NCBI GenBank assembly: GCA_009917695.1
Contig: JAACJG010000003.1
Location: 310,001-374,000, forward strand
Source of the DNA: Candidatus Rifleibacterium amylolyticum
Lineage (GTDB): Bacteria; Muiribacteriota; Ozemobacteria; Ozemobacterales; Ozemobacteraceae
Reading direction: 5' to 3'
Length of the DNA: 64,000 bases
Positions 18,236 through 55,084 of this stretch are shown here, piece after piece (position 1 is the first letter of the stretch; each line of letters opens with the position of its first letter). The translations under genes and the position numbers were made by a program. Below the pieces are notes generated by a model, which saw only the letters and a program-made list of their open reading frames with translations, made no database searches and had not been told where the DNA came from.

Positions 18236-18493
18236 TTAGCGACAATCTTTCTTGAGAATTTTCGAAAAGTAGTAGACGCCGACCAGCGCGAATATCAGAA
18301 CGAATGGCAGTGCCACGACATAATGACCGGTAAAGGGGCGCACCGGGTTCATTTTTTCTCGTGCGCGCAGCAGATTTTTGAGAGTTTTTTCGAGCTCTTT
18401 TTTTACCTCGGCGTCAGATACGTTATCGATTGACTTTTTAAGTTCGGCAATAGCCGCGTCGAGACTTTCGAGTGTGGTTTCTTTTGGGGTCAT
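18236..18493 (-). CDS. Small tail-anchored membrane protein with coiled coil
   Basis: An 85-residue protein. Residues 8-48 form a charged heptad-like helix (LDAAIAELKKSIDNV..AEVKKELEKTLKNLL), then a basic/proline turn, then one membrane helix at about 58-78 (YVVALPFVLIFALVGVYYF) and a short KKDCR end. The topology suggests a cytoplasmic coiled coil anchored by its C-terminus. The start codon overlaps the stop of the upstream TPR lipoprotein gene by four bases (18490-18493), which indicates translational coupling. No family recognised. Confidence 0.7.
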   Translation of the reverse strand: MTPKETTLESLDAAIAELKKSIDNVSDAEVKKELEKTLKNLLRAREKMNPVRPFTGHYVVALPFVLIFALVGVYYFSKILKKDCR

Positions 18494-20970
18494 TGATTAT
18501 TCTCCTCTGATTGTGAAGAAAGATTGGTGCCCAGTCTCTGGTCAAGTTTCTTCAACTGAGCCTGGTTAAGGTTCATTCCCTTGATCCGGCCGAGAACTCT
18601 TTGTGCATCTATCTCACGTCCGATCTGGCGGAATCGGTCGGCGATGTCGAACATGCTGTCGGGTTCGATAAAGCCGGCTTTAAGGGCTTTGTGATACTCT
18701 TCAGCCGCGCTGGAAAGCTGGCCGGAAGCGATGAACAGGTCGCCCATTCTGATATATGGCTCGGGGTTCTGCGGTTCGCGGCTTAGAGAAGTTTTGTATG
18801 CTGCCAGTGCAGCCTCATACTGGCCCTGACTCTTATAAACATCACCCTGGAGCAGGTATAGTGAGTTGAGATCGCCCTGTTGGGCGATTCCGGTGTTCAC
18901 TAATGCCAGAGCTTCAGTAAAGAGTCCTTCGTTGATCATGGCTTTCGCCAGAGGTTCGTAAGCACGAGGGTTGCTCTTGGGGTTTTTCTGGGCATATCTC
19001 GGGAAGCTTTCGAGCTGATCAGGGTTGGTCAGGCGTACTTGCTCGGTAATCTCGGCGGCAAGACTGTGCATTCCGATTTCTGAGTAACCATTAGCCAGTG
19101 CGCGCAGCGCAAACACGTTGCGAGGATCGAGTTTGAGAGCTTTCAGGTAGTTGGCACAGGCCATTTCATGGCTTCTGGTAGCGGTATAAACCTTGCCGAG
19201 ATTCATCAGTGCATTGAAGTTTTCAGGGGTTCTTTGCAGGACATGTCTGAATGCTTCTATCGCTTCGTTAAAAAAGCCGCCCCGTGCGTATTCGAGCGCG
19301 CGCTCATAGTCTGCGTCAGCCGGAGACTCTTCGATCACGCTGCGCGGAACATACGCCGGAGTGCTTTCAGATGCCGTCGTCGCGCTGAGTGACGGTGGTG
19401 GCGAAGAAAGGCTTACGACAGGCGTCTGAGTGTCTTCTTCGCCAAGTGCGCGCAGAATTCTGGCTGCATAAGGATCTTCGTGATTGAGTGAATTGCGTGA
19501 TGCAGCCCAGAGTGAGTGTGCCTGATCCTTCAGTCCGCTCTGAATCAGGTTTATCCCGGCAAAATAGCGGTATTTGTGGTTGAAAGGTTCTTTGCGAATT
19601 GCCTTTTCGAAATATTCCTGAGCTTCTTTGTGCTTTCCTGATTCCATCTCAAGCTGGGCGTAATTGAAAAGAGTTGCAACATGCTCGGGATCAGTTGTGA
19701 GGACTTGCTGCCAGATTTTGCGGGCTTCATCAAAGTTGCCGCTGCGCGCGAGGATCTGACCTTTTTCTGCCATGATTTCGAGTTTATCATGATAAGAGGG
19801 CTCGATTTCTTCGATCAGTTTCATGGCGCGATCGTTTTCGCCAAGCTGATAAAGGCATCTTGCCATCTGTAGTTTCCCGGATGATGACTCGGGATTGTTG
19901 TTCAGATAGCGCTCAGCATATTTGTAGGCCTCATCGATCACACCCAGCTTCTCGCATACCATGCTCAAGTTCAGCAAAGCCGACGATTCTGATGGGTAAA
20001 GTGTTACCAGGTTTTCGAGCAGCTTTTTCTGTTCACTGAGATTTCCGGTGCGCTCAAGAGTTTTCAATCTTGCATTTATTGTCTCGAGGCTGGTGGTGCT
20101 TTCGCTCGATGCATCTGCACCCGCCGGCAGATCGCGAGAAAAGGATGCTCTCAGTTCAACGGCTTCAGCATTCTGGGGGTCCAGCTTTAGGGCCTTGTTT
20201 AACATGTCGCTGGCCTTGCGGACTTCACCCATGCGATGCAGAAGGGCGGCATAGGCAGTTAACCCCTCAACAAAGTCAGTACTCATTTCCGTGAGGGCGC
20301 GTAACTCTCTTTCGCTTTCCATGAGGCGGTCGCCCTTCATCAGCAGGCGAGCCAGCAGGAGTCGAGTTTCTGGCTGGTCAGGCAGCAGATTGACCGCTTC
20401 TCGCAGCATTGACTCGGCTTCAACCAGATTTTCTGTGTCGATCAGTCTGGTAGCGGTAATATTATAGGCCTTTGCCAGTTTTGGTTCGATTTCTTCTGAC
20501 TTGTAACCGGCCTGAATCAGCTTTTTGCCGAGCTCTATCGCTTCACTGGCCATATTTTTGCCAAGCGCGACATCTATCATCTGTGCCAGACAATCATGCA
20601 ATGCTCTTGTGTAGTTGCGATCGTCCGGCGCCAGTTCTACTGCTGTTTCATAGCTTTTGCGGGCCTCAGCGTATTTTTTCTCGCCAGCCAGAGCCTGGCC
20701 GAGCAGAAAGTGGGCTCGGGCATCGCCGGGAGTCTCTGCAATGCGTGAAGAAGCCAGTGATCTAGCGGTTGCATAATCCTGAGCTTCAATCGCGGCTCTG
20801 ATTTCGGCATTGTCAGACCAGGTTGAGAATTTACCATCTTCGGCTGCTGCTGTTTCGCTGACCGGCGCCACCGGATTTTTGCTTTTTTTCTTGCCGCCAC
20901 AGCCTGCGAGGTTGAGAGCTAACATGGCACCACAGGCTGGAACCAGAATTAACTTTGTATAAAAATGCAT
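18490..20970 (-). CDS. Large TPR lipoprotein
   Basis: An 826-residue protein with a lipoprotein signal: hydrophobic core then lipobox LAGC with Cys at residue 24, followed by a GGKKK spacer. The rest is a long superhelix of tetratricopeptide repeats, for instance ARAHFLLGQALAGEKKYAEARKSYETAVELAP, and many P-D/P-E/P-N capped helix pairs. A Ser/Pro/Thr-rich linker near residues 525-555 splits two TPR blocks. It should be anchored to a membrane face by its lipidated Cys. Downstream partners are the 85-residue coiled-coil protein (overlapping) and the radical SAM gene. It starts 20 bases after prs on the same strand, so may be read from the same transcript. Confidence 0.85.
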   Translation of the reverse strand: MHFYTKLILVPACGAMLALNLAGCGGKKKSKNPVAPVSETAAAEDGKFSTWSDNAEIRAAIEAQDYATARSLASSRIAETPGDARAHFLLGQALAGEKKYAEARKSYETAVELAPDDRNYTRALHDCLAQMIDVALGKNMASEAIELGKKLIQAGYKSEEIEPKLAKAYNITATRLIDTENLVEAESMLREAVNLLPDQPETRLLLARLLMKGDRLMESERELRALTEMSTDFVEGLTAYAALLHRMGEVRKASDMLNKALKLDPQNAEAVELRASFSRDLPAGADASSESTTSLETINARLKTLERTGNLSEQKKLLENLVTLYPSESSALLNLSMVCEKLGVIDEAYKYAERYLNNNPESSSGKLQMARCLYQLGENDRAMKLIEEIEPSYHDKLEIMAEKGQILARSGNFDEARKIWQQVLTTDPEHVATLFNYAQLEMESGKHKEAQEYFEKAIRKEPFNHKYRYFAGINLIQSGLKDQAHSLWAASRNSLNHEDPYAARILRALGEEDTQTPVVSLSSPPPSLSATTASESTPAYVPRSVIEESPADADYERALEYARGGFFNEAIEAFRHVLQRTPENFNALMNLGKVYTATRSHEMACANYLKALKLDPRNVFALRALANGYSEIGMHSLAAEITEQVRLTNPDQLESFPRYAQKNPKSNPRAYEPLAKAMINEGLFTEALALVNTGIAQQGDLNSLYLLQGDVYKSQGQYEAALAAYKTSLSREPQNPEPYIRMGDLFIASGQLSSAAEEYHKALKAGFIEPDSMFDIADRFRQIGREIDAQRVLGRIKGMNLNQAQLKKLDQRLGTNLSSQSEENNQ

Positions 20971-20990: not shown

Positions 20991-21938
20991 TTATAAAAAC
21001 AACTCGCTTACCGAGCGTCTTTCAAAAATTCGTCTGATTGTTTCGCCAATGAGCGGCGCCAGCGATAGAACGGTCAAACGGCATTTTTCTATTTTTTCGG
21101 GGCTGAGAGCTACTGAATTTGTGCAGATAATCTCTTTTACCGCTGATTTTTCGATTCTTTCGACCGCGGGTGGAGACAGCAGGGCATGTGTACAGCAGGC
21201 CATGACTGTTTTGGCACCTTTCTCGATCAGGCTCTCGGAAACGGTGACAAGAGTTCCCGCAGTATCGATGATGTCGTCGATTATGATGCAGTGCTTACCC
21301 TCAACATCGCCGATTACGTTCATGACTACGGCCTTATTCTTCTCCGGGCGGCGTTTATCGATGATAGCCATGGGCAGGTCGAGTTTTTTGCCAAAGGTGC
21401 GTGCTCGCAAAACGCCGCCGGTATCAGGCGACACAACAACATGGTCGGTGAGGTCTCGTTTTAAAATATGTTCCGAGAGCAGGCGAACCGCTGACAGATG
21501 ATCGACCGGAATATCGAAAAAGCCCTGAAGAGCGGGGTCGTGCATGTCGACTGTCATCATGCGGTTGGCGCCGGCAATGGTAATTATGTTGGAAACCAGT
21601 TTGGCGGTGACAGGCTCACGCCCGGTCGTTTTCTTTTCCTGGCGTGAGTAACCAAAATAAGGAACAACTGCGGTTACGCTTGCGGCCGACGCGCGTCTGA
21701 GGGCGTCCATGGTGATCAGCAGTTTCATCAGGTTCTCGTTAACCGGGGTGCTGGTCGGTTGAATGATAAAGGTATCGCAACCACGCACTGATTCTTCGAT
21801 GCGACAGTAGAGTTCGCCATCGGCAAAGCTGGTGTGAAAAACGTTTCCTTCAGGAATCATGAGAAATCGGCAGACTTCCGAAAAAAGTTCGCGATTGCTG
21901 TCACCTGAGAAAATTTTTACCCGTGAATTAGTATGCAT
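20991..21938 (-). CDS. prs: Ribose-phosphate pyrophosphokinase
   Basis: A 315-residue Prs of normal length. It makes PRPP from ribose-5-phosphate and ATP for nucleotide, His and Trp synthesis. Visible family features are FADGELYCRI near the start, FGYSRQEKK (ATP-contacting Arg/Lys-containing loop), the DMHDPALQGFFDIP segment, VVSPDTGG (catalytic flexible-loop region follows with KRRP) and the PRPP-binding loop IIIDDIIDTAGT. It lies 22 bases after glmU on the same strand, reproducing the spoVG-glmU-prs order of Firmicutes. Confidence 0.97.
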   Translation of the reverse strand: MHTNSRVKIFSGDSNRELFSEVCRFLMIPEGNVFHTSFADGELYCRIEESVRGCDTFIIQPTSTPVNENLMKLLITMDALRRASAASVTAVVPYFGYSRQEKKTTGREPVTAKLVSNIITIAGANRMMTVDMHDPALQGFFDIPVDHLSAVRLLSEHILKRDLTDHVVVSPDTGGVLRARTFGKKLDLPMAIIDKRRPEKNKAVVMNVIGDVEGKHCIIIDDIIDTAGTLVTVSESLIEKGAKTVMACCTHALLSPPAVERIEKSAVKEIICTNSVALSPEKIEKCRLTVLSLAPLIGETIRRIFERRSVSELFL

Positions 21939-21960
21939 GGCTGCTCCTTGTAATCATGAA

Positions 21961-22968
21961 TTAACCCTCTATCAAGGAAAACGGTTCAATCTGGCTCTTG
22001 TCGGCAACATGAGCGTTTTTAACAATACAGGCTTCGAGACTGCAGCCGTTACCGATAGTGGCGCAGCTGATATGGCAGTTCGGCCCGATTACACAGTCTC
22101 GACCTATTCTGCATCGCCCCGAAATCATGGTGCCCGGATGAATGACTGTGTCCGGTTCTATGCTGACATCTGGTCCGATAAAGGTGTTGTGCGGGCTTGT
22201 AATAGTAACTCCGGCGCTCATGAGCCGATCGAGTATCTGCTTTTGAAGTATGGCGCTTACCTCAGCGAGGTGTTGGCGGCTGTTAATTCCGAGAGTAGAC
22301 GATTCGTCCTTTTCGATGCAGCTGATGACTGGCAGGCCTTGTTCAACCGCCATTTCAACGAGGTCAGTAAGATAATATTCCTTCTGCTGATTGCCAGCCG
22401 TCAGCTTGAAAATATTGTTTTGCAGAAACTGGCCTTCGAAAAGGTATACGGCGAGGTTTACTTCCTTGACTTTGAGCTCTTCTTGCGAACAGTCACGGGC
22501 TTCTCTTATTGCGCAGACCTGGTTGCTCCTGCGCAGAATTCGGCCATAGTTGCCGGGGTTTTCCATGTTGAGAGTCATCATGGTAATCGCCGGTTTCTGA
22601 CTGTCGTGCATTTCGATCATTTCACGCAGTGTGTCGGTAGAAATCAGCGGGGTGTCGCCGCAGACAACGAGCAGTCGCTCCGGCATGGCAGTAATCTCTT
22701 TTGCAAAGCACTGAACTGCGTGACCGGTTCCCAGTTGTTGCGGTTGCTCGACAAAAGAGACATTCTCGCCGGTTAGCAGATCGCGCACCAGTTCGCTCTT
22801 ATAACCTGTTATCAAAGTGACTTTGTCACAGCCAACTGCCTTTACCGCTTCGATGACATAAGAAACCATGGGCTTGCCCAGAATCGGGTGTACTACTTTT
22901 GGTAATTCGGATTTCATCCGGGTGCCTTTGCCGGCGGCCAGAATCAGGGCCTGAAGCTTAGCAGTCAT
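21961..22968 (-). CDS. glmU: GlmU-type UDP-GlcNAc pyrophosphorylase lacking the acetyltransferase part
   Basis: A 335-residue protein. The uridyltransferase domain is complete: LILAAGKGTRMKSELPKV (signature Arg/Lys), QLGTGHAVQ, CGDTPL, NPGNYGRI, and EVNLAVYLF. It should form UDP-GlcNAc from GlcNAc-1-P and UTP. The left-handed beta-helix starts (FIGPDVSIEPDTVIHPGTMI, IGRDCVIGPNCHI) but stops at SQIEPFSLIEG, at the point where bifunctional GlmU continues with its acetyl-CoA site. Full-length GlmU is about 450-460 residues. Only 22 bases separate it from prs, so no split remainder exists here. GlcN-1-P acetylation would need another enzyme. Confidence 0.9.
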   Translation of the reverse strand: MTAKLQALILAAGKGTRMKSELPKVVHPILGKPMVSYVIEAVKAVGCDKVTLITGYKSELVRDLLTGENVSFVEQPQQLGTGHAVQCFAKEITAMPERLLVVCGDTPLISTDTLREMIEMHDSQKPAITMMTLNMENPGNYGRILRRSNQVCAIREARDCSQEELKVKEVNLAVYLFEGQFLQNNIFKLTAGNQQKEYYLTDLVEMAVEQGLPVISCIEKDESSTLGINSRQHLAEVSAILQKQILDRLMSAGVTITSPHNTFIGPDVSIEPDTVIHPGTMISGRCRIGRDCVIGPNCHISCATIGNGCSLEACIVKNAHVADKSQIEPFSLIEG

Positions 22969-23124
22969 ATTCTACCTCACAGTTTTTTTCGCGGTTATTA
23001 TACACAGATTTTTCTCTTTCTGGCCATAAATACTGCAAATTTTCCTGAGCCCGCCTGTATCAACTATCTGGCGACTATGCCGGGTAAAGCATTGTCTTTG
23101 ATATGAATAGTGCAGCATAAAACT

Positions 23125-23148
23125 TAAAAGCCCGCCAGAGGGCGGGCT
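23125..23148 (-). terminator. Intrinsic terminator downstream of tRNA-Gln
   Basis: Read on the minus strand: an eight-base-pair GC-rich stem AGCCCGCC / GGCGGGCT (23141-23148 with 23129-23136) closing a four-base loop, followed by TTTTAAG. It lies 7 bases beyond the tRNA 3' end, so it should end the tRNA transcript. Confidence 0.85.
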
Positions 23149-23154
23149 GGTGAT

Positions 23155-23226
23155 CAGGGGCGGGAGGATTCGAACCTACGAATGCCTGCTCCAAAGGCAG
23201 GTGCCTTACCGCTTGGCTACGCCCCT
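23155..23226 (-). tRNA. tRNA-Gln (anticodon UUG)
   Basis: A 72-base cloverleaf on the minus strand. The acceptor stem is AGGGGCG paired with CGCCCCT, discriminator G. The D arm is GCC...GGC with AAGCGGTAA loop, and the anticodon stem is CCTGC/GCAGG with loop CTTTGGA, giving anticodon TTG. The T loop TTCGAAT is canonical, although the T stem (GTAGG/CCTCC) has one T-C mismatch. CCA is not encoded (the sequence continues ATCA). The acceptor and D arm resemble bacterial tRNA-Gln. It sits between spoVG and glmU. Confidence 0.93.
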
Positions 23227-23331
23227 TCGCCATTTTTGTGGCTGAAAGAAAATAACATATTTGGCCCCGCAGCGCAAGCGCAGTCTGCTCTCTAAAATCG
23301 TGCGCGTGACCATACTGCTTTTTTGTTGCGA

Positions 23332-23622
23332 TTATCGTGAGTTGGCTGGCTGATTTTCCGGTCGGACGGCTTCGTCTTCATAGGCGCGCAGAATTGTCTG
23401 CTTGATTTGTTCGGCCAGTTCTGTGTTAATGGCAAAAATAGTGTCGCGCCAGGTGCCATCTGGCATTTTTCGGCTTGGCATGCCAACAAAGCAGCCTCGT
23501 TGCGAAGAAAAAATCTGAAAATCTTTGATTACCAGGGCATCATCCAGCGTAATTTCGGCAAAAGCCATAAGTTTGCTGCGGGGAGCTTTGATCAGCTGAA
23601 TTCTGACATCGGTAATCTGCAT
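23332..23622 (-). CDS. spoVG: SpoVG family regulator
   Basis: A 96-residue protein of normal SpoVG length. It has the family core MQITDVRIQL, LMAFAEITLDDALVIKDFQI, GCFVGMPSRKMPDGTWRDT and INTELAEQI. SpoVG proteins are small nucleic-acid-binding regulators first named from sporulation and present in many bacteria that do not sporulate. It follows an exported-protein gene with a 3-base gap and precedes tRNA-Gln and glmU. The neighbourhood is the same as the conserved spoVG-glmU-prs order in Firmicutes, with the tRNA inserted. Confidence 0.96.
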   Translation of the reverse strand: MQITDVRIQLIKAPRSKLMAFAEITLDDALVIKDFQIFSSQRGCFVGMPSRKMPDGTWRDTIFAINTELAEQIKQTILRAYEDEAVRPENQPANSR

Positions 23623-26972: not shown

Positions 26973-28382
26973 TTATTCTTCGGGCTTTGGCGGCAATCTT
27001 CTTTTACGCAGTCTGACGCGGCTGGCCTGCTCGTAGTTGTTATCTGAAAGACCGGTGATTGAGCGCGACTCAAAAAGTACTTCGAGGTCGGGCTTGAGGT
27101 TTTCGAGAACCTCTTCGGTCAGTGACGAAAAGGCGAAAAAGACCTCGCGACCATCGTGTCCGCGAATGATACCCATTTTCTTTTCGATATCATAGCGCTC
27201 GATTTTGCCGGGCATTGATTCTGATTCTTCATTCTCGCCGATTTTCTCTATCTGAACGGCAATCGGGCTGACTGAATCTTTTACTATTCCGAATCTGACG
27301 CGGTCACCCTTTTTCAATGACGCTTCGTCTTCAGTTTTAACCGCTGAATAATGCAGAAGAACTTCAGGGTAATCGCTGCAGGTCAAGACGCCCATGCCGG
27401 TTTCCGGGCTATACCACTTGACTACACCTTCGACGTAAGCGTCCGGTGCGGGGTCGTAGATGATTTCTTCAACAGTTCGACCAATTTCGGCACGAATAAT
27501 TTCTATCTGTTCGATAAGCTGAACTACCTCGGGCTGATCCGGGCTGTTTTTAAGGCTGTCGCGCAGAGTCTGCACCGCCATTCCAAGAAGTCTGCGCTTG
27601 AAATAAACGAGTCCGAGATATAGAAGAGCCGCTGAATCGCCGGGAATAAGGCGCAAAGCTTCTAGCAGGTGCTGTTCGGCCTCTTCGGTCATGTCGAGCT
27701 CATACATGACTGCGCCGATGTCACGATGGTAGGCGGCGTTGTATGGGAATCGCCGGAGAAGCTGGCTGTACAGATCGAGCGACTCATCAAAAAACTTCAT
27801 GCGACTGTAAATGTCGGCCAGCTGCTCAATGGCGTCAACATTTTTCGGGTCAACCTGCAGTATGTTTTTGAAAGCCTCGGCGGCATCGAGGTAATGTGTG
27901 TCTGAATTGTCTTCATCATGTTTGAGGCGGTAGATGTCGCCAAGGTTACGATGAAAAAAGGCTTTGCGCTGGCCGGTTTTAAGGCCTTGCTGGAAACTGC
28001 GCAAGGCATTGTCGAAATCGTTGGCAAGTCGGTATGCCAGACCTATGGTTTCGTAATAGTCAGGCTCGCCGGGATCTTTGGCAATACACCAGTTGAGCTT
28101 GTCGACTGCCTCCTGAAGCCGGCCGGCCGACAGATCGGCGACTGCTTCATCGTATTTTTCGTGCAGTTCTTCGAGAAAGTCAGTCAGCTTTTCGTCGTAA
28201 GCAGTTCTTTTGTCGTCATCAGAAAGCAGATCGAAGGCATCTTTTAGCTCGCGCAGCTTTGGAATGTTGGCCAGGGGCGAATCAGAAGAGAACAGTTCGG
28301 CATATTTCTGCTTGTAGGCCGCAGCCAGTTCTTCAAGAGAAGCGAAATTCGATACACCAAAGAGCTGATAAAGGTTTTGCAT
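26973..28382 (-). CDS. J-like / TPR / double cold-shock-like domain protein
   Basis: A 469-residue cytoplasmic protein. Residues 1-70 resemble a DnaJ J-domain (LYQLFGVSNFASLEELAAAYKQK, ELKDAFDLLSDDDKRTAYDEK) but the HPD motif is absent. Residues about 75-295 are TPRs (YETIGLAYRLANDFDNALRSFQQGL, and so on). Residues about 318-380 read like a cold-shock domain: GVVKWYSPETGMGVLT, VLLHYSAV, SLKKGDRVRFGIV. A second, more diverged copy lies at about 398-455 (GKIERYDIEKKMGIIRG, VFFAFSSL). Such a combination should bring RNA binding to a protein-interaction scaffold. Convergent with the ABC ATPase. No partner gene on the same strand. Confidence 0.75.
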   Translation of the reverse strand: MQNLYQLFGVSNFASLEELAAAYKQKYAELFSSDSPLANIPKLRELKDAFDLLSDDDKRTAYDEKLTDFLEELHEKYDEAVADLSAGRLQEAVDKLNWCIAKDPGEPDYYETIGLAYRLANDFDNALRSFQQGLKTGQRKAFFHRNLGDIYRLKHDEDNSDTHYLDAAEAFKNILQVDPKNVDAIEQLADIYSRMKFFDESLDLYSQLLRRFPYNAAYHRDIGAVMYELDMTEEAEQHLLEALRLIPGDSAALLYLGLVYFKRRLLGMAVQTLRDSLKNSPDQPEVVQLIEQIEIIRAEIGRTVEEIIYDPAPDAYVEGVVKWYSPETGMGVLTCSDYPEVLLHYSAVKTEDEASLKKGDRVRFGIVKDSVSPIAVQIEKIGENEESESMPGKIERYDIEKKMGIIRGHDGREVFFAFSSLTEEVLENLKPDLEVLFESRSITGLSDNNYEQASRVRLRKRRLPPKPEE

Positions 28383-28455
28383 CGGTGATTAGGTTTTCCC
28401 GGTCGCAGGATTATTGCCGTAAAATTGTAACCTTTAAGCCCCTGAGTTGACAAGC

Positions 28456-28543
28456 ACGAATCGAGAATTACAGCAATTCTCGATTAAAAGAGGAGAAAAC
28501 GTTGATTCTGCGACTGAGCTTAGCTTTGTGCAGAATGACAACG
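28456..28543. repeat. Dispersed palindromic repeat A, with adjacent 11-bp inverted repeat
   Basis: AATCGAGAATT (28459-28469) and AATTCTCGATT (28475-28485) form a perfect inverted repeat around ACAGC. It is followed by GATTCTGCGAC...GTGCAGAATGACAACG (28504-28543), whose arms ATTCTGC/GCAGAAT pair. The second part is of the same kind as elements near 39027, 41513 and 46883. It lies in the 255-base region between the minus-strand J/TPR gene start and the LptF/G gene. Confidence 0.55.
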
Positions 28544-31534: not shown

Positions 31535-34273
31535 ATGGCAATCTGCCCGAAATGTTCTTCTGATTCTGTTTCCGGGCGCTATTGTGGAAAATGTGGCGCT
31601 GTCATCGACAAAAAGCCATCAACAAAAACCGCAACCAGGCAGGCACCCAAAACAGCCGAGGCGGGGTTGCCGCCGACAAAGCCTGATATAGAGGCTCTCG
31701 AATCGGCTCTTAAGAAAAACCCTGCGGCAGCAGAAAACTATTTAAATCTTATCAGCGCTTTGAACAGTATCGGGCGTTACGAACAGTCATATTCAACCTT
31801 CCGGGCTGCTCGCGCGCTGGCTCCAGACAACCCCGATGTACTCAAGGCCGGGGCCATAGTTTATGAACTTATGAACCGGCGCGAGGAGGCGATAGAATGT
31901 CTTGCTGCGGCGCTCGAGCGTCGGCCCGAAGATTCTGAAGCAGTTTTTAGAATTTCCGGGCTGCTTTACGACAGCGGAAAAAAAGAAGAAGCGTTGCGGC
32001 AGATAGAAACTTTGCACTTCAAGAACCCGCGTAATCAGGATGTGCTTATAAGAATGGCGCAGATTCATCTGAGTCTTGGCAACGCGTCTGAAGCCCAGAA
32101 ATATCTTGCGGCCTACAAAGAACTGGCTGGCGCTACTGCTGAGATGTATCTGCTGCTGGGTGAGACTATGCTGGCGCGTAAATTTTATGACGGAGCGGTC
32201 AAAAATTTCCGCGAAGCGATCAGGACTTTTCCGGATGATCCGCAAATGCGTTTTGGACTTGGGCGTGCTTATCTGGGCATGAACGAAAAGGGGCAGGCTT
32301 TACTTGAGTTCGAGCAGGCTCTCAATAAAAAGGCCGATAATCCTGATATTCTTATCGAACTTGGCAAGCTGCAGAATTCGATGGGTATGGAAGAGCAGGC
32401 AGATCAGACCTTTTCCCGTGTCGAGAAGAGCAAGAATTCGAACGGTGAGTGTTTTTTGAATATTGCCCGTCATTTTGTCGAGCGCAGTGACCTGATTCGC
32501 GCGATAAAATATCTTGAAATGGCTCATGAACTCAGCCCATACCATCCTGAAGTTCAGAAAACACTTGGATATACGCTGGCCCGGCAGAAGCGCCATACCG
32601 AAGCTCTTGCAGTTTTTCAGCAGGCAGTCGAAACATATCCCAACTGTGAATGGGGTCACGAAGGCATCATTGGTAGTGCTGAGGCTACCGGCGCTTTTGC
32701 TCTCAAGGCCAGTTCCCAGAAAAAACTTCTGGAAATCAGAAAATCTGGTGCCGAAGACTGGTGCGACTATGGCGAAACCCTGATCAGGCTTGGGCGTTTT
32801 GACGATGCCCAGGATGCTTTCGAAGCAGCTGCCCGCATCGATCCGACCTGCGTGCGTGCTTATCAGGCTCCTGAACTGATAAAAATTGAAAAGGCGCGCG
32901 CTGAGGGCGAAAAGATGGCAGGCCAGGGTATTGAAGCCCTGCAGAAAAAGTTTTATCTCACGGCGGCCGAACGGCTTGAGCGCGCTCTTGAGCTGGTGCC
33001 GAACCAGCCAGAATGGATCAAGCTGCTGGCAGAGGTCTCGCTCAAAACCGCAGAAGTAGATCGGGCTTCGGGTTTGCTGGCCCGTGCCCGTGCTTTTGAT
33101 TCGACAGATTTCACGACCAGTTTCAATCTTGCCCGCGTTTACGAGTTCGAAAACAAAATTCCTCTGGCAATCGAGCTCTTAACTACCATTACACGTGACC
33201 ACCCGGCTGAACTGTCGGCGCATCTTATGCTGTTGCGTCTCAAGCGCAGCCAGATACGTGGTAATCGCGTCGAGCCAGAAATGCTCGAAGCTCTGGTCAA
33301 GAATCTTGAGCTCGAACTCGCTCATATTCGTCGCGATTCTCCGGTTCCTCTCATGGTCAGGGCCTATGCCCGATATGTTTTTGGCAGCCGTTCCAAGTTC
33401 CAGGTCGAGAGCTTTGCCAGCGCCGAAAAGACTTTTAACGAAGTATTGAAAAAGTTTGGTGAAAACGAGGCGGCAATACGTGGTCTGGCATTGATTGAAC
33501 GAGCCCGTGGCAACGTCGAAAAAGCAGTCGAACACACACATGCCCTGGTCAAGCTTTCGTCTGATCCACAGCGTCTGTATGAACTTGCCCGCCTGCACGA
33601 AAACTTTCAGCAGCACGGCGAGGCGCGCAAGTGCTACTCATCTCTACGTAATCTTTTCCCTGAGAATGGTTATTATCGGCGCAAGAATATAGAGATGACG
33701 GCTGAATTGTCGAAGAGCGGCAGCAAAAACGAATTGATGAATATGCTTTCTGACCATCATCAGGCATTGCAGAGCAAGACAGACCAGATCTGGCTCCTGT
33801 ATGAAACTGCGCTTGGCCAGGAGTTGCTCGCCGAATATACGGCTCAGAAAGAGGAGTGGGTTAAAAAAGCTCTTCTCAACTGGCACAAGGCCGCAAGTCA
33901 CAGTGACAGCAATCATTGGATACGTTGGGGAATGTTGCGCTGTCAGTTCAAACACCTTAAGGGCGCCGATCGACAGCGCGCTGCCGCCACTAATCTCAAG
34001 GCCTGCGAGAAAATTATGCGCGAGATGCCTGATAATCCTCTGGCTTTACAGGCTGTCGCCAGATGTTATCTGGCCTATGGTGATCTTACCAATTCTGATA
34101 AGGCACTTGGATTTCTTGAAAAATCGTGGTTTTTATCGACAGAATTCAGCGAAACGGCCGAACTGCTGGCGAAAACCGCCAAAGAACTTGGTAAGTCAGT
34201 TATAGTAGACGCGATTGGTTATAACATGATACTATTGGAACCAGAGCTGGCGACCACCATGTTTCAGCTCTGA
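31535..34273 (+). CDS. Zinc-ribbon TPR protein, 912 residues
   Basis: A zinc ribbon opens the protein (CPKC at 4-7, CGKC at about 18-21), followed by a Lys/Thr/Pro-rich linker and then a very long array of tetratricopeptide repeats, e.g. AENYLNLISALNSIGRYEQSYSTFRAARALAPDNP and MRFGLGRAYLGMNEKGQALLEFEQAL. About 20 repeat pairs are suggested by the spacing of the A/G-x(7)-A motifs. No signal peptide or membrane helix. The ATG has CAGGGAG upstream and follows argS by one base. It is one of six TPR proteins in this window. Role unknown, but the cytoplasmic location and zinc ribbon suggest a scaffold. Confidence 0.85.
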   Translation: MAICPKCSSDSVSGRYCGKCGAVIDKKPSTKTATRQAPKTAEAGLPPTKPDIEALESALKKNPAAAENYLNLISALNSIGRYEQSYSTFRAARALAPDNPDVLKAGAIVYELMNRREEAIECLAAALERRPEDSEAVFRISGLLYDSGKKEEALRQIETLHFKNPRNQDVLIRMAQIHLSLGNASEAQKYLAAYKELAGATAEMYLLLGETMLARKFYDGAVKNFREAIRTFPDDPQMRFGLGRAYLGMNEKGQALLEFEQALNKKADNPDILIELGKLQNSMGMEEQADQTFSRVEKSKNSNGECFLNIARHFVERSDLIRAIKYLEMAHELSPYHPEVQKTLGYTLARQKRHTEALAVFQQAVETYPNCEWGHEGIIGSAEATGAFALKASSQKKLLEIRKSGAEDWCDYGETLIRLGRFDDAQDAFEAAARIDPTCVRAYQAPELIKIEKARAEGEKMAGQGIEALQKKFYLTAAERLERALELVPNQPEWIKLLAEVSLKTAEVDRASGLLARARAFDSTDFTTSFNLARVYEFENKIPLAIELLTTITRDHPAELSAHLMLLRLKRSQIRGNRVEPEMLEALVKNLELELAHIRRDSPVPLMVRAYARYVFGSRSKFQVESFASAEKTFNEVLKKFGENEAAIRGLALIERARGNVEKAVEHTHALVKLSSDPQRLYELARLHENFQQHGEARKCYSSLRNLFPENGYYRRKNIEMTAELSKSGSKNELMNMLSDHHQALQSKTDQIWLLYETALGQELLAEYTAQKEEWVKKALLNWHKAASHSDSNHWIRWGMLRCQFKHLKGADRQRAAATNLKACEKIMREMPDNPLALQAVARCYLAYGDLTNSDKALGFLEKSWFLSTEFSETAELLAKTAKELGKSVIVDAIGYNMILLEPELATTMFQL

Positions 34274-39349: not shown

Positions 39350-39627
39350 CTCGCGGCAAGGACGGTGGGTATCTGCGTTTTATGAGCGTCGCGAAAGGAG
39401 GTGCAGCTCTAACAGGTAGCTCGTTGAATGCTCCGCCAGTCTTGAGGGTATAAACGCCCGGGGTCAGGCCGAAAGAAGCCGGTAGAAATTTTGAAGAACA
39501 GTTAGTCAGCATTGAAGGAAACATGGACACTCTAATGCCGGCGCTGATCAACAAGGTATTAAACGGCAGCTGAAGGTTAAACCCCAAAGGACAAAATCTT
39601 AAAATCAAATCCTGTATGGGGGAATTA
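39350..39627 (+). promoter_or_regulatory. Long conserved leader of porin 1 (candidate structured RNA)
   Basis: About 275 bases between promoter and start codon that share ordered sequence blocks with the leader of porin 2: CGAAAGGAGGTG...CTCTAA...GGTAGC (39392-39420), GGGGTCAGGCCGAAAGAAGCCGG (about 39460-39482), ATTTTGAAGAA (39488-39498), AAGGAAACATGGACACTCTAATG (39515-39537) and the end TATGGGGGAATT. CCCC at 39582-39585 could pair with the GGGGG of the ribosome binding site at 39618-39622. It does not fit any riboswitch class I can name with confidence. Confidence 0.7.
39523..39573 (+). CDS. Micro-ORF in porin 1 leader (16 residues)
   Basis: ATG 39523 to TGA 39573 encodes MDTLMPALINKVLNGS, preceded by AAGGAAAC as a plausible ribosome binding site. 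The start region is conserved in the second leader (MDTVMW...). It ends 9 bases before the CCCC that could pair with the porin ribosome binding site. Translation is not proven, and the conservation might reflect RNA sequence. Confidence 0.35.
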   Translation: MDTLMPALINKVLNGS

Positions 39628-41508
39628 ATGAAACGTATTTCTATCCTTCTCGTCGCTGTAATGGTTCTTTCAACCATAATAGCTACCGCTGAACCTTTTA
39701 AAGATGTTCCTTTTTCACACTGGGCTTATGATGCAGTCAACAAACTTGCAGCCAAAGGCATCCTTCAGGGTTATCCTGATGGAACCTTCAAGGGTAAGCA
39801 GACTGTAACCCGCTACGCGCTCGCCATGGTAACCGCCAAAATGCTGGCCAACGTTGAGCAGATGCTCGAAACCGGCGTCGGCAGCAACCTGGTAACCAAA
39901 GCTGACCTGCAGACTCTCGAAAAACTGACAGTTGAATTCGCAGACGAACTCGCCCTTCTGGGTGTTAAAGTTACCGCTCTCGAAGACGACATGCAGGTGG
40001 TAAAAGAAGATGTTTCCATGCTCAAGCGCGATGTAGACGGAATCAAAGACTACATGGCCAAAGGTGGCATGGAAAAAGTTAAGCTTTCTGGCGACATGCT
40101 GGTAAGGCACACCAACCTGATCACCAACCGCGATGGCAATCCGGTAGGAAACAATGATAACGTTAGAACTGAAAGCCAGATTCGCTTCAAGTTCAAGGCC
40201 AACATTGATGAAAATATCACTGCCGTAGCTCGCTGGCGCATGTTCATCAAGGCTTCCGACAATAATAATCCTTCTGTCAATCCTGCTGGTCCTATGGGCG
40301 GCGGTTTTGGTAGTGGTGTTGGCGGTATTGGCGCGCTCACCGCTGCTGATGGTATCGTTGACCTCGCTTACCTGCACATCAAAGACATGTTTCGCTTCGG
40401 TGGCGACTTCACCTTTGGTCGCAATCTTTACAGCCATGGACACAATATGCTGCTGAACAACTATGTTGACGCAGTTCGCTATTACAAGCGCTCTGGCGAC
40501 GTCGATGTGGTTTTCCAGAGCATTTATGACCGCCACGTTGGCAATTACAAAGATTCTAACGCCGTTGACTACCGCAACGTCTGGAACCTCAATCTCGACA
40601 CCAAATATCGTGATCATGATCTTTATATGGGCATTTATGCTCAGGAAGAACCTAACGCTCTTGGTGTTGATGTTGCTGCCTATGGTCTCGCTGGCGCTCA
40701 GATTCTTGCTCTTAATAATATTGCTCCTGTTGCTGCCGGAACCTACCAGAAGAGCGACAGTCGCTGGGACGTAGAATTTGGTTCAAAAGGCCCGATCAGC
40801 AGAAACGGTCACTGGGACTATGATCTCGGCTTTGCCTACACCAACTATGAACTTGATGTCGTAAATACTGCCGCTACTACCTGGGTAAGCCCCGAAATGC
40901 AGAGCTGGATGGGTCATGTTGCAGTGAAATGGGACAGCAAAAAAGAATGGGCTGCCAAACTGGCTTACACTTTTGCTGATGACGAATCAATGGGCGCGGT
41001 CTCTGTCAACAATGATATGAGATATCTCGATTTCCCGGAAACTCCTTATGAAGATATTGCACGCGGCAATAACTATTTCCGCAATGGTCTGTTGAATATG
41101 GGCGACCTCAAGCTTCAGGCTGAATATCGCCCCCGCAATACCAAGCATTATTTCAGAGTTGCCGGCGATTTCCTCAATGAACTTGATGAAACCGTAAGCA
41201 ATGACCTGGCAAGATATCAGGCTGGTCATGGCAATGTCGCTATTCCAGTTGCTTTTAATAAGACTAACACCGCTTATGACAGATGGAATAACTTCATGAC
41301 TGCTGATGCTAAGGCTGTCGTATTCACTTTTGAATATCGCTATCAACTGGCTGAAAACACCAGAATCAGAGTTGGCTACACCAATTTTGAAATGGATGGC
41401 GATGAAACCAAGCTTAATGGCGCGACTGCAGCTGTTGCAGCTGGCCGTGGCAACAATGGCGATTACGATTTCAACATGTTCTGGGCTGAAGTCTACAGCC
41501 AGTTCTAA
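39628..41508 (+). CDS. OmpM-like SLH-anchored porin 1
   Basis: A 626-residue outer-membrane protein. Signal peptide MKRISILLVAVMVLSTIIATA, SLH domain at about 24-75 (FKDVPFSHWAYDAVNKLAAKGILQGYPDGTF, TVTRYALAMVTAK), a coiled-coil stalk (about 95-150, LEKLTVEFADELALLGVKV..), then a beta-barrel of alternating aromatic strands ending VYSQF with C-terminal Phe. Known OmpM/SlpA proteins use the SLH domain to bind cell-wall polymer and thereby tie the outer membrane to the wall. ATG 39628 was chosen over in-frame ATG 39616 because GGGGGA lies 4 bases before it. It ends at element C and a strong terminator. Its sister gene follows at 41983. Confidence 0.92.
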   Translation: MKRISILLVAVMVLSTIIATAEPFKDVPFSHWAYDAVNKLAAKGILQGYPDGTFKGKQTVTRYALAMVTAKMLANVEQMLETGVGSNLVTKADLQTLEKLTVEFADELALLGVKVTALEDDMQVVKEDVSMLKRDVDGIKDYMAKGGMEKVKLSGDMLVRHTNLITNRDGNPVGNNDNVRTESQIRFKFKANIDENITAVARWRMFIKASDNNNPSVNPAGPMGGGFGSGVGGIGALTAADGIVDLAYLHIKDMFRFGGDFTFGRNLYSHGHNMLLNNYVDAVRYYKRSGDVDVVFQSIYDRHVGNYKDSNAVDYRNVWNLNLDTKYRDHDLYMGIYAQEEPNALGVDVAAYGLAGAQILALNNIAPVAAGTYQKSDSRWDVEFGSKGPISRNGHWDYDLGFAYTNYELDVVNTAATTWVSPEMQSWMGHVAVKWDSKKEWAAKLAYTFADDESMGAVSVNNDMRYLDFPETPYEDIARGNNYFRNGLLNMGDLKLQAEYRPRNTKHYFRVAGDFLNELDETVSNDLARYQAGHGNVAIPVAFNKTNTAYDRWNNFMTADAKAVVFTFEYRYQLAENTRIRVGYTNFEMDGDETKLNGATAAVAAGRGNNGDYDFNMFWAEVYSQF

Positions 41509-41703: not shown

Positions 41704-41982
41704 CTTGCTACTAAGCCCTATGGCAGAATTGTATTTAACAGGTATCACGAAAGGGGGTGTAACTCTAGATAGGTAGCCTGTGATAATACGCCAGAGAGCT
41801 GGCAGGTGAAAAATCACCTGGGGGTAAAGCCAGAAGACAGACCGGATTTTGAAGAAGGCCGAAAACGTTAAAGGAAACATGGACACTGTAATGTGGCCGG
41901 CAGTCAGAGAAAAACGGAAAATCGCGAAGGCAGAACCCCAAAAGATCGAAAATCTCAAATCGAAACCTATATGGGGGAATTT
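41704..41982 (+). promoter_or_regulatory. Long conserved leader of porin 2 (candidate structured RNA)
   Basis: About 279 bases. Block CGAAAGGGGGTG...CTCTA...AGGTAGC (41748-41777) matches leader 1, flanked here by TATCAC/GTGATA which pair. GCCAG-AGAG-CTGGC and CAGGTGA-AAAA-TCACCTG (near 41791-41822) are perfect local hairpins. GCCAGAAGACAGACCGG (about 41828-41844), ATTTTGAAGAA (41846-41856) and AAGGAAACATGGACACTGTAATG (41871-41893) are the other shared blocks. CCCC at 41936-41939 could pair with GGGGG at 41973-41977 of the ribosome binding site. Confidence 0.75.
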
Positions 41983-41986
41983 ATGA
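41879..41986 (+). CDS. Micro-ORF in porin 2 leader (35 residues)
   Basis: ATG 41879 to TGA 41986 encodes a 35-residue basic peptide starting MDTVMWPAVREKRKIAK, with AAGGAAAC before the start. Its stop overlaps the porin 2 start as ATGA, so the two could be translationally coupled. The first four codons match those in leader 1 but the tail does not. Translation is unproven. Confidence 0.35.
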   Translation: MDTVMWPAVREKRKIAKAEPQKIENLKSKPIWGNL

Positions 41987-43812
41987 AACGTATTAGTATC
42001 CTTCTCGTAGCTGTTATGGTTCTTTCAACCGTAGTAGCAAGCGCAAATCCTTTCTCTGATGTTCCGTTTTCACACTGGGCATATGATGCAGTAAACAAGC
42101 TGGCTGCCAAAGGCATCCTGCAGGGTTATCCCGATGGCACTTTCAAGGGCAAGCAGACTGTTACCCGCTATGCTCTCGCCATGGTTACCGCTAAAATGGT
42201 TGCTAACGTTGAACAGATGCTCGAGTCTGGCATCGGCACCAACCTCGTAACCAAGTCTGACCTCCAGACCCTCGAAAAACTGACTGTTGAATTCGCAGAC
42301 GAACTGGCCCTCCTGGGTGTTAAGGTTACTGCTCTCGAAGACGACATGCAGGTAGTAAAAGAAGACGTCTCCATGCTGAAGCGTGATGTAGACGGCATCA
42401 AAGACTACATGGCCAAGGGTGGCATGGAAAAGGTTAAGCTTTCAGGCGACATGCTCGTTCGCCACGTTAACCTCATTCACAGCAATGACGCTTTTAACAA
42501 TAATGCCAAGACTGAAAGCCAGCTCCGCTTCAAGTTCAAGGCCAATATCGACGAAAACATTCACGCTGTAGCTCGCTGGTATGTTTTTGAAAGAGGCCTT
42601 GATGGCAATCCGATCGGTAACCCCGCTCTTAACACTGGCGACTTCGGTATGGCCGGTATTGGCGCTACCACTGCTGCTGATGACACCATCGACCTCGCTT
42701 ACTTGCATATCAAAGATATGTTCCGCTTCGGTGGCGACTTCACCTTCGGTCGCAATTTCTACACTCATGGCCACGCTCTCCTGCTGAACGACTATGTTGA
42801 TGCTATCCGCTATTACAAGCGCTCTGGCGACGTTGACGTAGTATTCCAGGCTATCTATGACCGCCATCGTGGTAGCTACAATGATACCGCTCTTGTTGAC
42901 TTCCGCAACGTATGGAACCTCAACCTCGGCACCAAGTATCGCGATCACGACCTCTATTTGGGCGTATACATGCAGGATGAACCCCAGCTCGCTAACCGCC
43001 TGGGCGTAACTGCGTTTGCTCTTGGCAATGTGGCTGCTCGCAGCCAGAAAAGCGACTCTCGCTTCGACGTTGAATTCGGTTCAAAAGGCCCGATCGGTAA
43101 CAACGGTCACTGGGACTATGATCTTGGTTTCGCATACACCAACTACGAAATCGATATCGTTCAGAACGCCGCAGCTACTTTAATTCAGCCCGAAATGCAG
43201 AGCTGGATGGGTCATGTTGCAGTAAAATGGGACAGCAAAAAAGAATGGGCTGCCAAACTGGCCTACACTTTTGCTGACGACGAATCAATGGGCGGCATCG
43301 CTCTTGACAACGACCAGAGATATCAGGATGGAATCGAAACTCCGTATGAAGACATCAGCCGCGGCAACAACTATTTTGCCAATGGCCTGACCAACCTCGG
43401 CGTTCTCAAACTCCAGGCTGAATTCCGCCCCCGCAACACCAAGCATTACTTCAGAATCGCCGGTGACTTCATCGACGAACTTGATGACACTGTATCTAAC
43501 GACCTGGCTAAATATGTTGATACCGGTGTTGTTAATGGTGTCAGAACCAATGCAATGCCCGCCGTTCTTAGAAACACTGTTTATGACAAGTGGAATAACT
43601 TCGGTACTGATGAAGCCAACGCTGCTGTATTCACCTTCGAATATCGCTATCAGCTGGCTGAAAACACCAGAATCAGAGTCGGTTACACTGCATTTGACTT
43701 CACCGGCGACGCCTGGAAATGGGACGGCGTTGGTAAAACCAAGGCTGGTAACGGTCTCTATGGCGACTATGACTACAATATGGTCTGGACTGAAATTTTC
43801 AGCCAGTTCTAA
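41983..43812 (+). CDS. OmpM-like SLH-anchored porin 2
   Basis: A 609-residue paralogue of the porin at 39628. Residues 1-165 (signal peptide, SLH domain, coiled-coil stalk) are nearly identical, with only scattered substitutions such as A-N-P-F-S-D for E-P-F-K-D. The barrel strands are also well kept (FKFKANIDENI, RYYKRSGDVDVVFQ, WDVEF/FDVEFGSKGPI, WAAKLAYTFADDESMG). Differences concentrate in the segments between strands, which should be loops. It ends EIFSQF. The start ATG 41983 follows GGGGGA. The gene is closed by a strong terminator and is not cotranscribed with the following gene. Confidence 0.92.
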   Translation: MKRISILLVAVMVLSTVVASANPFSDVPFSHWAYDAVNKLAAKGILQGYPDGTFKGKQTVTRYALAMVTAKMVANVEQMLESGIGTNLVTKSDLQTLEKLTVEFADELALLGVKVTALEDDMQVVKEDVSMLKRDVDGIKDYMAKGGMEKVKLSGDMLVRHVNLIHSNDAFNNNAKTESQLRFKFKANIDENIHAVARWYVFERGLDGNPIGNPALNTGDFGMAGIGATTAADDTIDLAYLHIKDMFRFGGDFTFGRNFYTHGHALLLNDYVDAIRYYKRSGDVDVVFQAIYDRHRGSYNDTALVDFRNVWNLNLGTKYRDHDLYLGVYMQDEPQLANRLGVTAFALGNVAARSQKSDSRFDVEFGSKGPIGNNGHWDYDLGFAYTNYEIDIVQNAAATLIQPEMQSWMGHVAVKWDSKKEWAAKLAYTFADDESMGGIALDNDQRYQDGIETPYEDISRGNNYFANGLTNLGVLKLQAEFRPRNTKHYFRIAGDFIDELDDTVSNDLAKYVDTGVVNGVRTNAMPAVLRNTVYDKWNNFGTDEANAAVFTFEYRYQLAENTRIRVGYTAFDFTGDAWKWDGVGKTKAGNGLYGDYDYNMVWTEIFSQF

Positions 43813-53191: not shown

Positions 53192-55084
53192 ATGGAAACA
53201 GAAACCGCACAGGAATTTTTCGAAAAAGGTGTCGATTTGCAGCAGCGCGGCCTATTTGACCACGCTATTGAAGAGTATGACCGCGCTCTGCGTCTTGATC
53301 CCGACAACATCAATATTATGTTGAATCTCGGCGCCGCCTGTCTGCAGAAGGGGCTTTCTGACCGTGCTGTTAAGCTTCTCAAGAAGGTTCTTGAGCAGGA
53401 ACCCGAAAACAGTATGGCTCTTTATAACATAGGCAAAGCCTATATTTATCGCGAAGAATACGAACAGGCTCTCGCACATTTCAACCGGGCCGCGGCCCAG
53501 CAGCCAGAGGATCGCGACATTAAAAAACTTATCGCAGTTTGTCTGCGGCATCTCGGGCGCATCGAACAGTCGGTGGCAATCACCCTCGGTCAGCTCGACA
53601 CAATAACCGCTGATGCCGATGCGATGTTGCGTCTTGGTGATGATTTGATGAGTCTTGAGCGCTTCGATGAGGCTCTCGATATTTTTCGTCGTACCAGCGC
53701 GGTGGCCTGCGATTCTATATTGCCTTTGCTCGGAATTTATCAGTGTCAGCTTCGTCTTGATAACAGAGAAAAGGCGGTAACAGCGCTCAAGCGGGCGATA
53801 ATGATCGAGCCGACCAATCAGGAGTTGCTGGTGAAACTCGCTGATGTATACCTTGGCGACGGGAGAATTCCGGAGGCGGTCGAAGTTATCAACAAGGGTC
53901 TTGAAACAATTGCCTCGCCGAATCTGCTGCGCGAGAAATATAACGAAATGGCTCGCCGATTACCGGTTTTGCGCAAAAAAGCCGCGGCATCGCGCCTTGA
54001 GTCTGGCTTGAGCCGGCATGAAACTGATGTTTATGATATTCTTGACGGTCTCTATGATGGCCGTATCCGGCTTGAAATTGCCGTAAAAGAGCTCGAGGGG
54101 CTGCGTCGCAAAGATCCTTCCGATCTGCTGGTCGCCGATGAGCTTGCTAACCTGCTGTTTCAGGCGCGAGAATTTGGGCGTGCCGCCGAGATCTATTCAG
54201 AAGTCCATCTGAGCCGGCCAAAAGAGCCCCGTCACCGCATCGATCTCGCAAAATCACTGGCAATGAAAGGCGATACCGAAGCTGCCCGCGCCATTCTCCG
54301 TGATTCTATAAGAGACCTCGGGCACATGCCGGAACTCGATCTGGCAATGACCGAACTCGACCTTTTCGATAAAGAATTCGAACGCGCTGCAGGTCGTCTT
54401 GAGATCATACTGAAAGAATATCCGGCTGAGCAGCATGCGTTGTTTCTCTATGCCTATACAGCCATGCGGCTCGATGAGCTCGAAACGGCCGAAACAACCT
54501 TCAAGCAGCTTTTCGAAAAGAACAGTACTGATGAAGAACTGGCTGTCTGGTATTCGCGTCTCGCGATCATGCAGGGGCAGCCGGCGCGGGCTCTCAAGGT
54601 CTGGGAAAACTTCAGCGACGGTATTGAAAGCCTTGTCGAGATTATCGCCAGGGTGGAGCTGACGCTGGCAACAGGCGACAGCAAGGGAATAATGCGGCAT
54701 CTCCAGAAGATTGGCGATTATCACCCGCGTTTCATCGAAGATCATATGCTGTTTGGCAAAGCCTTTTTCTTTGCCGGTGATTTCTCTTCGGCACAACGCG
54801 AATTTGATCTGGTGCTACGCCTTGAAGCTCGTAACGCCGAAGCTCTGGCAATGTCGGCGATGAATTCTCTGATCCGTAACAAAACAGCAAAATTCTGGAA
54901 TTTCTGGCAACACGCAATCGACTGTGATTCTCTATATGCTGTAATTCCAGCTATGGTGCTAAAAGACAGTCTGAATTTTTCGCAGCGCGAACGTCTTAAA
55001 ACTGAGACGCGCAAAATGGTAGATATTGGCGCTCTCAAAGAGATAGACAAAGCGCGCCTGGCCAGGCTGCTGAAGTGCCTCTAA
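53192..55084 (+). CDS. Cytoplasmic TPR protein, 630 residues
   Basis: No signal peptide. Starts METETAQEFFEKGVDLQQRG and continues with regular TPR units (FDHAIEEYDRALRLDPDN, AVKLLKKVLEQEPEN, EQALAHFNRAAAQQPED). A less regular middle (about 270-420) may be a spacer. It begins directly at the stop of the DnaB-like ATPase gene, so translation is coupled, and the HEAT protein gene follows 14 bases later. Hence likely partners are those two proteins. Confidence 0.85.
   Translation: METETAQEFFEKGVDLQQRGLFDHAIEEYDRALRLDPDNINIMLNLGAACLQKGLSDRAVKLLKKVLEQEPENSMALYNIGKAYIYREEYEQALAHFNRAAAQQPEDRDIKKLIAVCLRHLGRIEQSVAITLGQLDTITADADAMLRLGDDLMSLERFDEALDIFRRTSAVACDSILPLLGIYQCQLRLDNREKAVTALKRAIMIEPTNQELLVKLADVYLGDGRIPEAVEVINKGLETIASPNLLREKYNEMARRLPVLRKKAAASRLESGLSRHETDVYDILDGLYDGRIRLEIAVKELEGLRRKDPSDLLVADELANLLFQAREFGRAAEIYSEVHLSRPKEPRHRIDLAKSLAMKGDTEAARAILRDSIRDLGHMPELDLAMTELDLFDKEFERAAGRLEIILKEYPAEQHALFLYAYTAMRLDELETAETTFKQLFEKNSTDEELAVWYSRLAIMQGQPARALKVWENFSDGIESLVEIIARVELTLATGDSKGIMRHLQKIGDYHPRFIEDHMLFGKAFFFAGDFSSAQREFDLVLRLEARNAEALAMSAMNSLIRNKTAKFWNFWQHAIDCDSLYAVIPAMVLKDSLNFSQRERLKTETRKMVDIGALKEIDKARLARLLKCL

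Follow-up and report, generated by a model that had tools for sequence, protein, structure and literature searches.

What might a bacterial protein do that joins a J-like domain without the HPD motif, a run of TPRs and two cold-shock domains (CSDs) in one chain? An earlier note on the window (the whole 64,000-nucleotide stretch of Candidatus Rifleibacterium amylolyticum DNA analysed here; host genome 5.39 Mb, 35 contigs) had placed such a fusion at positions 26973-28382 and suggested an RNA-handling adaptor of an architecture not met before. Those coordinates are exact: an intact frame lies there on the minus strand, and the plus strand of the same stretch carries several stops. The fusion is also as claimed, since the encoded 469-aa protein has a J fold that lacks HPD at residues 1-64, about six TPRs at 87-300 and two CSDs at 317-382 and 390-458. 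The gene and its parts, in window coordinates, are:

28424..28453, minus strand: likely sigma-70-type promoter, TTGTCA-18-TACAAT, from a sequence scan
26973..28382, minus strand: complete gene for pseudo-J, TPRs, CSD1 and CSD2, ATG start, 469 aa
28191..28382, minus strand: J-fold domain without HPD, residues 1-64 (Pfam DnaJ in 17 of 17 orthologues, AlphaFold, Foldseek)
28254..28292, minus strand: replacement loop FxxxSPLxNIPKL, residues 31-43, at the HPD site (alignment columns of 17 orthologues)
27483..28124, minus strand: TPR superhelix, residues 87-300 (Pfam TPR families, AlphaFold helices)
27462..27482, minus strand: linker G-x-TVEEI, residues 301-307, common to the three-CSD relatives
27237..27434, minus strand: CSD1, residues 317-382 (Pfam, residue table)
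27009..27215, minus strand: CSD2, residues 390-458, more eroded (26.8 bits alone)
26976..27014, minus strand: basic C-terminal tail (R-x-RK...), residues 457-469, with invariant R457, R459 and K460

Within the same GTDB family, 21 of the 24 genomes have a full-length orthologue, and the other three are incomplete (64-84% completeness). All 17 orthologues that were scanned separately gave TPR, CSD and DnaJ Pfam matches (best DnaJ E-value 2.5e-11), and the whole architecture is kept at 41-91% identity, which excludes a chance origin of this set of domains. An artefact of assembly or annotation is a vanishingly improbable source of the fusion: the open frame and its architecture recur in 21 of the family's genomes, with identities as low as 41%, so this explanation is already refuted, and we found no point in its support. 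Purifying selection is strong on every segment, with pairwise dN/dS of about 0.01-0.12 where dS could be estimated, a rough range as dS is saturated in several pairs. By mean pairwise identity among the 17 orthologues, the J segment (0.63) is about as well kept as CSD1 (0.66) and better than the TPRs (0.56). AlphaFold gave the full-length protein a pLDDT of 86.5 (TPRs mostly above 90, the two beta-rich ends about 80), with relative domain placement uncertain because the pTM is 0.66. All of the modules are known, but as far as our searches reach no one has described their combination, the invariant loop or the confinement to a single phylum; no NCBIfam model covers the protein and we found no description of a J, TPR and CSD architecture in the open-access literature, in keeping with the novelty first claimed for it.

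The N-terminal segment could have been an unrelated helix bundle, but structural comparison identifies it as a J domain. Scored singly, residues 3-63 match Pfam DnaJ at 1.7e-5 and 25.3 bits, just below the curated cut-off of 27.8 bits; in the whole-genome search the same stretch reaches 29.0 bits and passes it. A phmmer search of residues 1-75 against the PDB lists J-domain proteins, with Sis1 first (8e-8) and E. coli DnaJ at 4e-6. AlphaFold, run on the 75-residue alignment, predicts the four J helices (4-8, 16-31, 40-54 and 56-74; pLDDT 91), and J-domain structures are the named matches among the best 50 that Foldseek returns from the PDB for this model (probability 0.99-1.00), the few others being chains of large complexes. 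As the domain is small, the Foldseek E-values run from a modest 4e-3 upward.

What this domain lacks is HPD itself, as had been suspected. In the alignment with Sis1, Y-HPD-KP stands opposite F-SSD-SP, and the facing columns of the 17 orthologues, between helices II and III, read SSD, TAG, TSG, TTD, TDK, SDK or KSD, never with H or P at the facing positions. Residues 1-64 are therefore J-like and not expected to act as a functional J-domain protein. The loss is specific to the 469-aa protein, because all four other J-domain ORFs of the genome have HPD. Around it, L30, F31, S35, P36, L37, P41 and L43 are invariant in the 17 orthologues; judged from these columns, the loop is not a product of random decay, HPD having given way to an invariant F-x-x-x-S-P-L. 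We also looked for the same loop in other proteins of the phylum and rejected the idea: the J profile finds these orthologues alone above 120 bits, and its other matches, at 44 bits or less, are mostly frames of DnaJ or CbpA size.

J proteins without HPD are a recognised fourth type, exemplified by Pam16 and DnaJB13 (PMC13254874). Residues 1-64 fit this pseudo-J (type IV) class, since here as there the J fold is kept and HPD is non-conservatively replaced (PMC13254874). The cited examples are eukaryotic, however, and none is joined to TPRs plus CSDs; the distinct and invariant FxxxSPLxNIPKL loop is likewise a feature of the 469-aa protein and not of them. Such proteins have been discussed mostly from eukaryotes, and whether HPD is lost by accident or by selection is still called enigmatic (PMC13254874). 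The 469-aa protein provides a bacterial case that is family-wide, with an invariant replacement loop and J-less close relatives for comparison, which opens this question to experiment in a moderately sized protein.

With HPD absent, stimulation of an Hsp70 is not expected, so that of the original description as 'chaperone-like' the fold stands and the activity is weakened. The TPRs bear on the same point. Residues 87-300 form helix-turn-helix repeats of 34 residues that match several Pfam TPR families above cut-off (best 1.4e-16), and TPR superhelices dominate the fold search of the full-length model against the PDB, which is uninformative on both ends. DNAJC7, a cytosolic co-chaperone with TPRs of the EEVD-binding kind (PMC13254874), also combines a J domain with TPRs in a single polypeptide, but in the order TPR then J and without a CSD. 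A TPR clamp on the DnaK tail was considered and rejected here: the DnaK of the genome ends in ...VVDAEFKKAD and not in EEVD, and so offers no classical clamp ligand. This absence also counts against a role inside the Hsp70 network, in which the HPD-less domain would pair or compete with HPD-bearing J proteins (compare Pam16/Pam18) and DnaK would be damped or placed on RNA-bound clients. The clear J fold that Foldseek finds in residues 1-64, the Pam16 precedent (PMC13254874) and the adjoining dnaK and dnaJ genes on contig C12 speak for such a role, but our gene is not near that pair, being on another contig, and we consider such a role rather unlikely.

The two C-terminal domains are certainly CSDs by fold. 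Pfam CSD (PF00313) matches the protein at 3.5e-17 in two stretches (62.5 bits in all, best 318-380), the family is found in all 17 orthologues, and AlphaFold places strands in both regions, upholding the OB/CSD fold predicted for residues 318-455; CSD2, which alone scores 26.8 bits in the whole-genome search, is accepted with its neighbour. The accompanying view that CSDs are normally single or nuclease-fused was too narrow, as multi-CSD proteins and other fusions are known, among them CoCoNuT defence proteins in which CSDs are fused with GTPase, nuclease and coiled-coil modules (PMC11090510). Like UNR/CSDE1 and these CoCoNuT fusions, the 469-aa protein carries several CSDs in one chain with other modules, although the CoCoNuT partners differ from its J domain and TPRs, and Pfam CSDE1 matches are weak and confined to relatives.

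The binding face of these domains is only partly preserved. We compared 17 orthologues with B. subtilis CspB at the stacking and contact residues of Csps; RNP1/RNP2, W8 and F30 are among the nucleic-acid contacts described in PMC4493011. CSD1 keeps K7, W8, H29 and an aromatic residue (Y/F) at position 30 in 17/17, but F15, F17, F27 and F38 are replaced by non-aromatic residues just as uniformly (aliphatic or Met at 15 and 17, Leu at 27). In CSD2, position 8 is R, K or S, positions 15 and 17 are non-aromatic, and His at 29 is missing from 15 of the 17. A full RNP1/RNP2 aromatic face is thus absent from both, being partial in CSD1 and less than that in CSD2. The net charge of CSD1 is -2 to -7, and the tail behind CSD2 is basic in every orthologue (+3 to +7 over the last residues). 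Bacterial Csps such as CspA and CspB have the CSD fold and the W/H/Y of the binding face in common with the 469-aa protein, but consist of just one domain, about 66 aa long, that has the full aromatic face, in place of two eroded copies at a chain end; one such intact 66-aa Csp, with KGYGFI and IFVHY, is encoded separately in this genome.

Our leading reading, held tentatively, is that the 469-aa protein is a lineage-specific, Hsp70-independent adaptor or scaffold that is weakly anchored to single-stranded RNA. Its pseudo-J domain and concave TPR face would serve as docking sites for protein partners and would leave the DnaK ATPase unstimulated; CSD1, through its remaining W/H/Y face, and the basic tail would weakly hold single-stranded RNA, to which the docked partner would thereby be tethered; CSD2 has probably become mainly structural. 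We infer partner docking and Hsp70 independence from the clear J fold, the replacement of HPD by an invariant loop and the purifying selection on all segments, and RNA tethering from W8, H29 and Y/F30 of CSD1 and the constantly basic tail. Independence from Hsp70 has precedent among HPD-less J proteins (PMC13254874, PMC11349236); kinetoplastid Pam18/Pam16 were proposed to work without Hsp70 (PMC11349236). The loss of four CspB contact positions from CSD1, gene neighbours shared by no more than two genera and the uncertain domain placement of the model weigh against the adaptor reading. Of the RNA-handling adaptor first suggested, then, the CSD fold and the conserved scaffold stand, and the binding face does not stand whole, four aromatic contacts being lost from CSD1 and most from CSD2; from the residues that are left, RNA binding by these CSDs is possible. 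A more specific proposal, that the protein is a phylum-specific RNA scaffold whose pseudo-J domain, with its invariant loop, has turned into a docking module that works independently of Hsp70, and that it couples partners to single-stranded RNA via the degenerate CSDs, seems to us somewhat doubtful. If RNA binding is confirmed, the protein would show bacteria coupling protein partners to RNA in a new way.

Almost as likely as an RNA-tethered scaffold is a purely protein-binding role, in which the eroded CSDs were retooled as protein-binding or structural modules and the 469-aa protein is a protein-protein scaffold with no part in nucleic-acid handling. The uniform loss of the four aromatic residues from CSD1, and of W8 and most of H29 from CSD2, fits this, and the intact Csp of the genome can do the ordinary Csp job. 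The acidic charge of CSD1 points the same way without being decisive, because ordinary Csps are also acidic. The invariance in CSD1 of the equivalents of K7, W8, H29 and Y/F30, and a tail that is always basic, argue against it and for the adaptor.

Relatives outside the family show what the CSDs may once have done. A homologue is encoded by seven genomes that belong to three further Riflebacteria families (f2, f4 and f5); the proteins examined (L082, L083 and L084) are homologous to the 469-aa protein over the TPRs, the TVEE linker and the CSDs, but have an extra CSD, a better preserved CSD1, no J domain and no basic tail. Their CSD1 keeps W8, F27, H29 and aromatic residues at 30 and 38. Since this is most of the aromatic face, nucleic-acid binding was probably a property of the ancestral protein. 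Their linker reads G-x-T[VI]EE; G301 and T303-E306 are invariant among the orthologues, and in four Riflebacteria families the G, T, E and E never vary. A five-residue insertion in CSD2 of the 469-aa protein is common to CSD3, not CSD2, of these relatives, which identifies the middle CSD as the one missing. An ordinary RNA chaperone or translation factor, to which the TPRs and J-like part merely add stability or oligomerisation (compare UNR/CSDE1), would suit the well-preserved CSD1 of these J-less proteins, but the family of the host has dispensed with one CSD, eroded the others and kept the J segment highly conserved, and we think it very unlikely here. The adaptor reading agrees with a likely history in which a TPR-CSD protein of the phylum gained a J domain in the family of the host and lost HPD afterwards.

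A profile of the linker plus CSD1 was searched against 382 genomes, 342 of them from other phyla. It found 28 Riflebacteria loci at 129-156 bits over its whole length, and no orthologue in the 342 other genomes, where matches stayed below 78 bits, covered the CSD part and fell in frames under 140 aa; orthologues are thus ruled out within that sample, and other TPR and CSD fusions may exist elsewhere. Plasmid-borne relatives were also considered, and gave TPR-only matches. The named contigs with close orthologues are from Candidatus Riflebacteria MAGs, apart from one filed as Ca. Methylomirabilis (L040, DYKG01000049.1), whose 73%-identical orthologue groups with the Riflebacteria family and which is probably mislabelled. 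The most distant homologue occurs in yet another Riflebacteria family (f6, L087:8715-10133, plus strand). Its CSD1 retains KGFGF and VFIHF, and its N-terminus, PDFYKLLGIDDAADS, resembles J helix I and could be the remnant of an older J domain. A J domain ancestral to the phylum was nonetheless rejected, as this protein (starting PDFYKLLGIDD) scores 0.5 bits with the J profile and has no DnaJ Pfam match.

The gene appears to have its own promoter, the same two hexamers being found upstream of the orthologues in L009, L010 and L011. A long leader of the cold-shock type was rejected, the predicted leader being only about 35 nt. Just upstream of the -35 hexamer, window 28461-28483 holds a perfect 9-bp inverted repeat, TCGAGAATT-N5-AATTCTCGA, which was not seen at the matching place in those three loci and may be an operator specific to the species or a chance occurrence. 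On one side of the gene lies lptF, in divergent orientation; on the other an ABC-transporter ATPase gene runs towards it. These flanks (lptF/argS and the ABC ATPase) are common to two genera (g1 and g4), and the neighbours differ in other genera and families; because of this the context gives no function and points to no operon partner, and we rejected function from gene neighbours. A role in anti-phage defence was likewise rejected: the only PADLOC matches were to a generic CSD model and, weakly, to TPR/PrimPol models, and the neighbours look like housekeeping genes.

The host genome is very rich in TPRs: a genome search with the 469-aa protein gave 45 matches, nearly all to TPRs. The window alone encodes a 912-aa protein in which TPRs accompany an N-terminal zinc-ribbon-like CxxC pair (31535-34273, plus strand), an 826-aa TPR lipoprotein-like protein (18490-20970, minus strand) and a 630-aa TPR protein (53192-55084, plus strand). 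It also contains an apparent duplication, two closely similar tandem genes of about 630 aa (39616-41508 and 41893-43812, plus strand) whose products resemble SLH-domain outer-membrane proteins, and a spoVG-like gene with glmU- and prs-like genes (20991-23622, minus strand) in this non-Firmicute genome.
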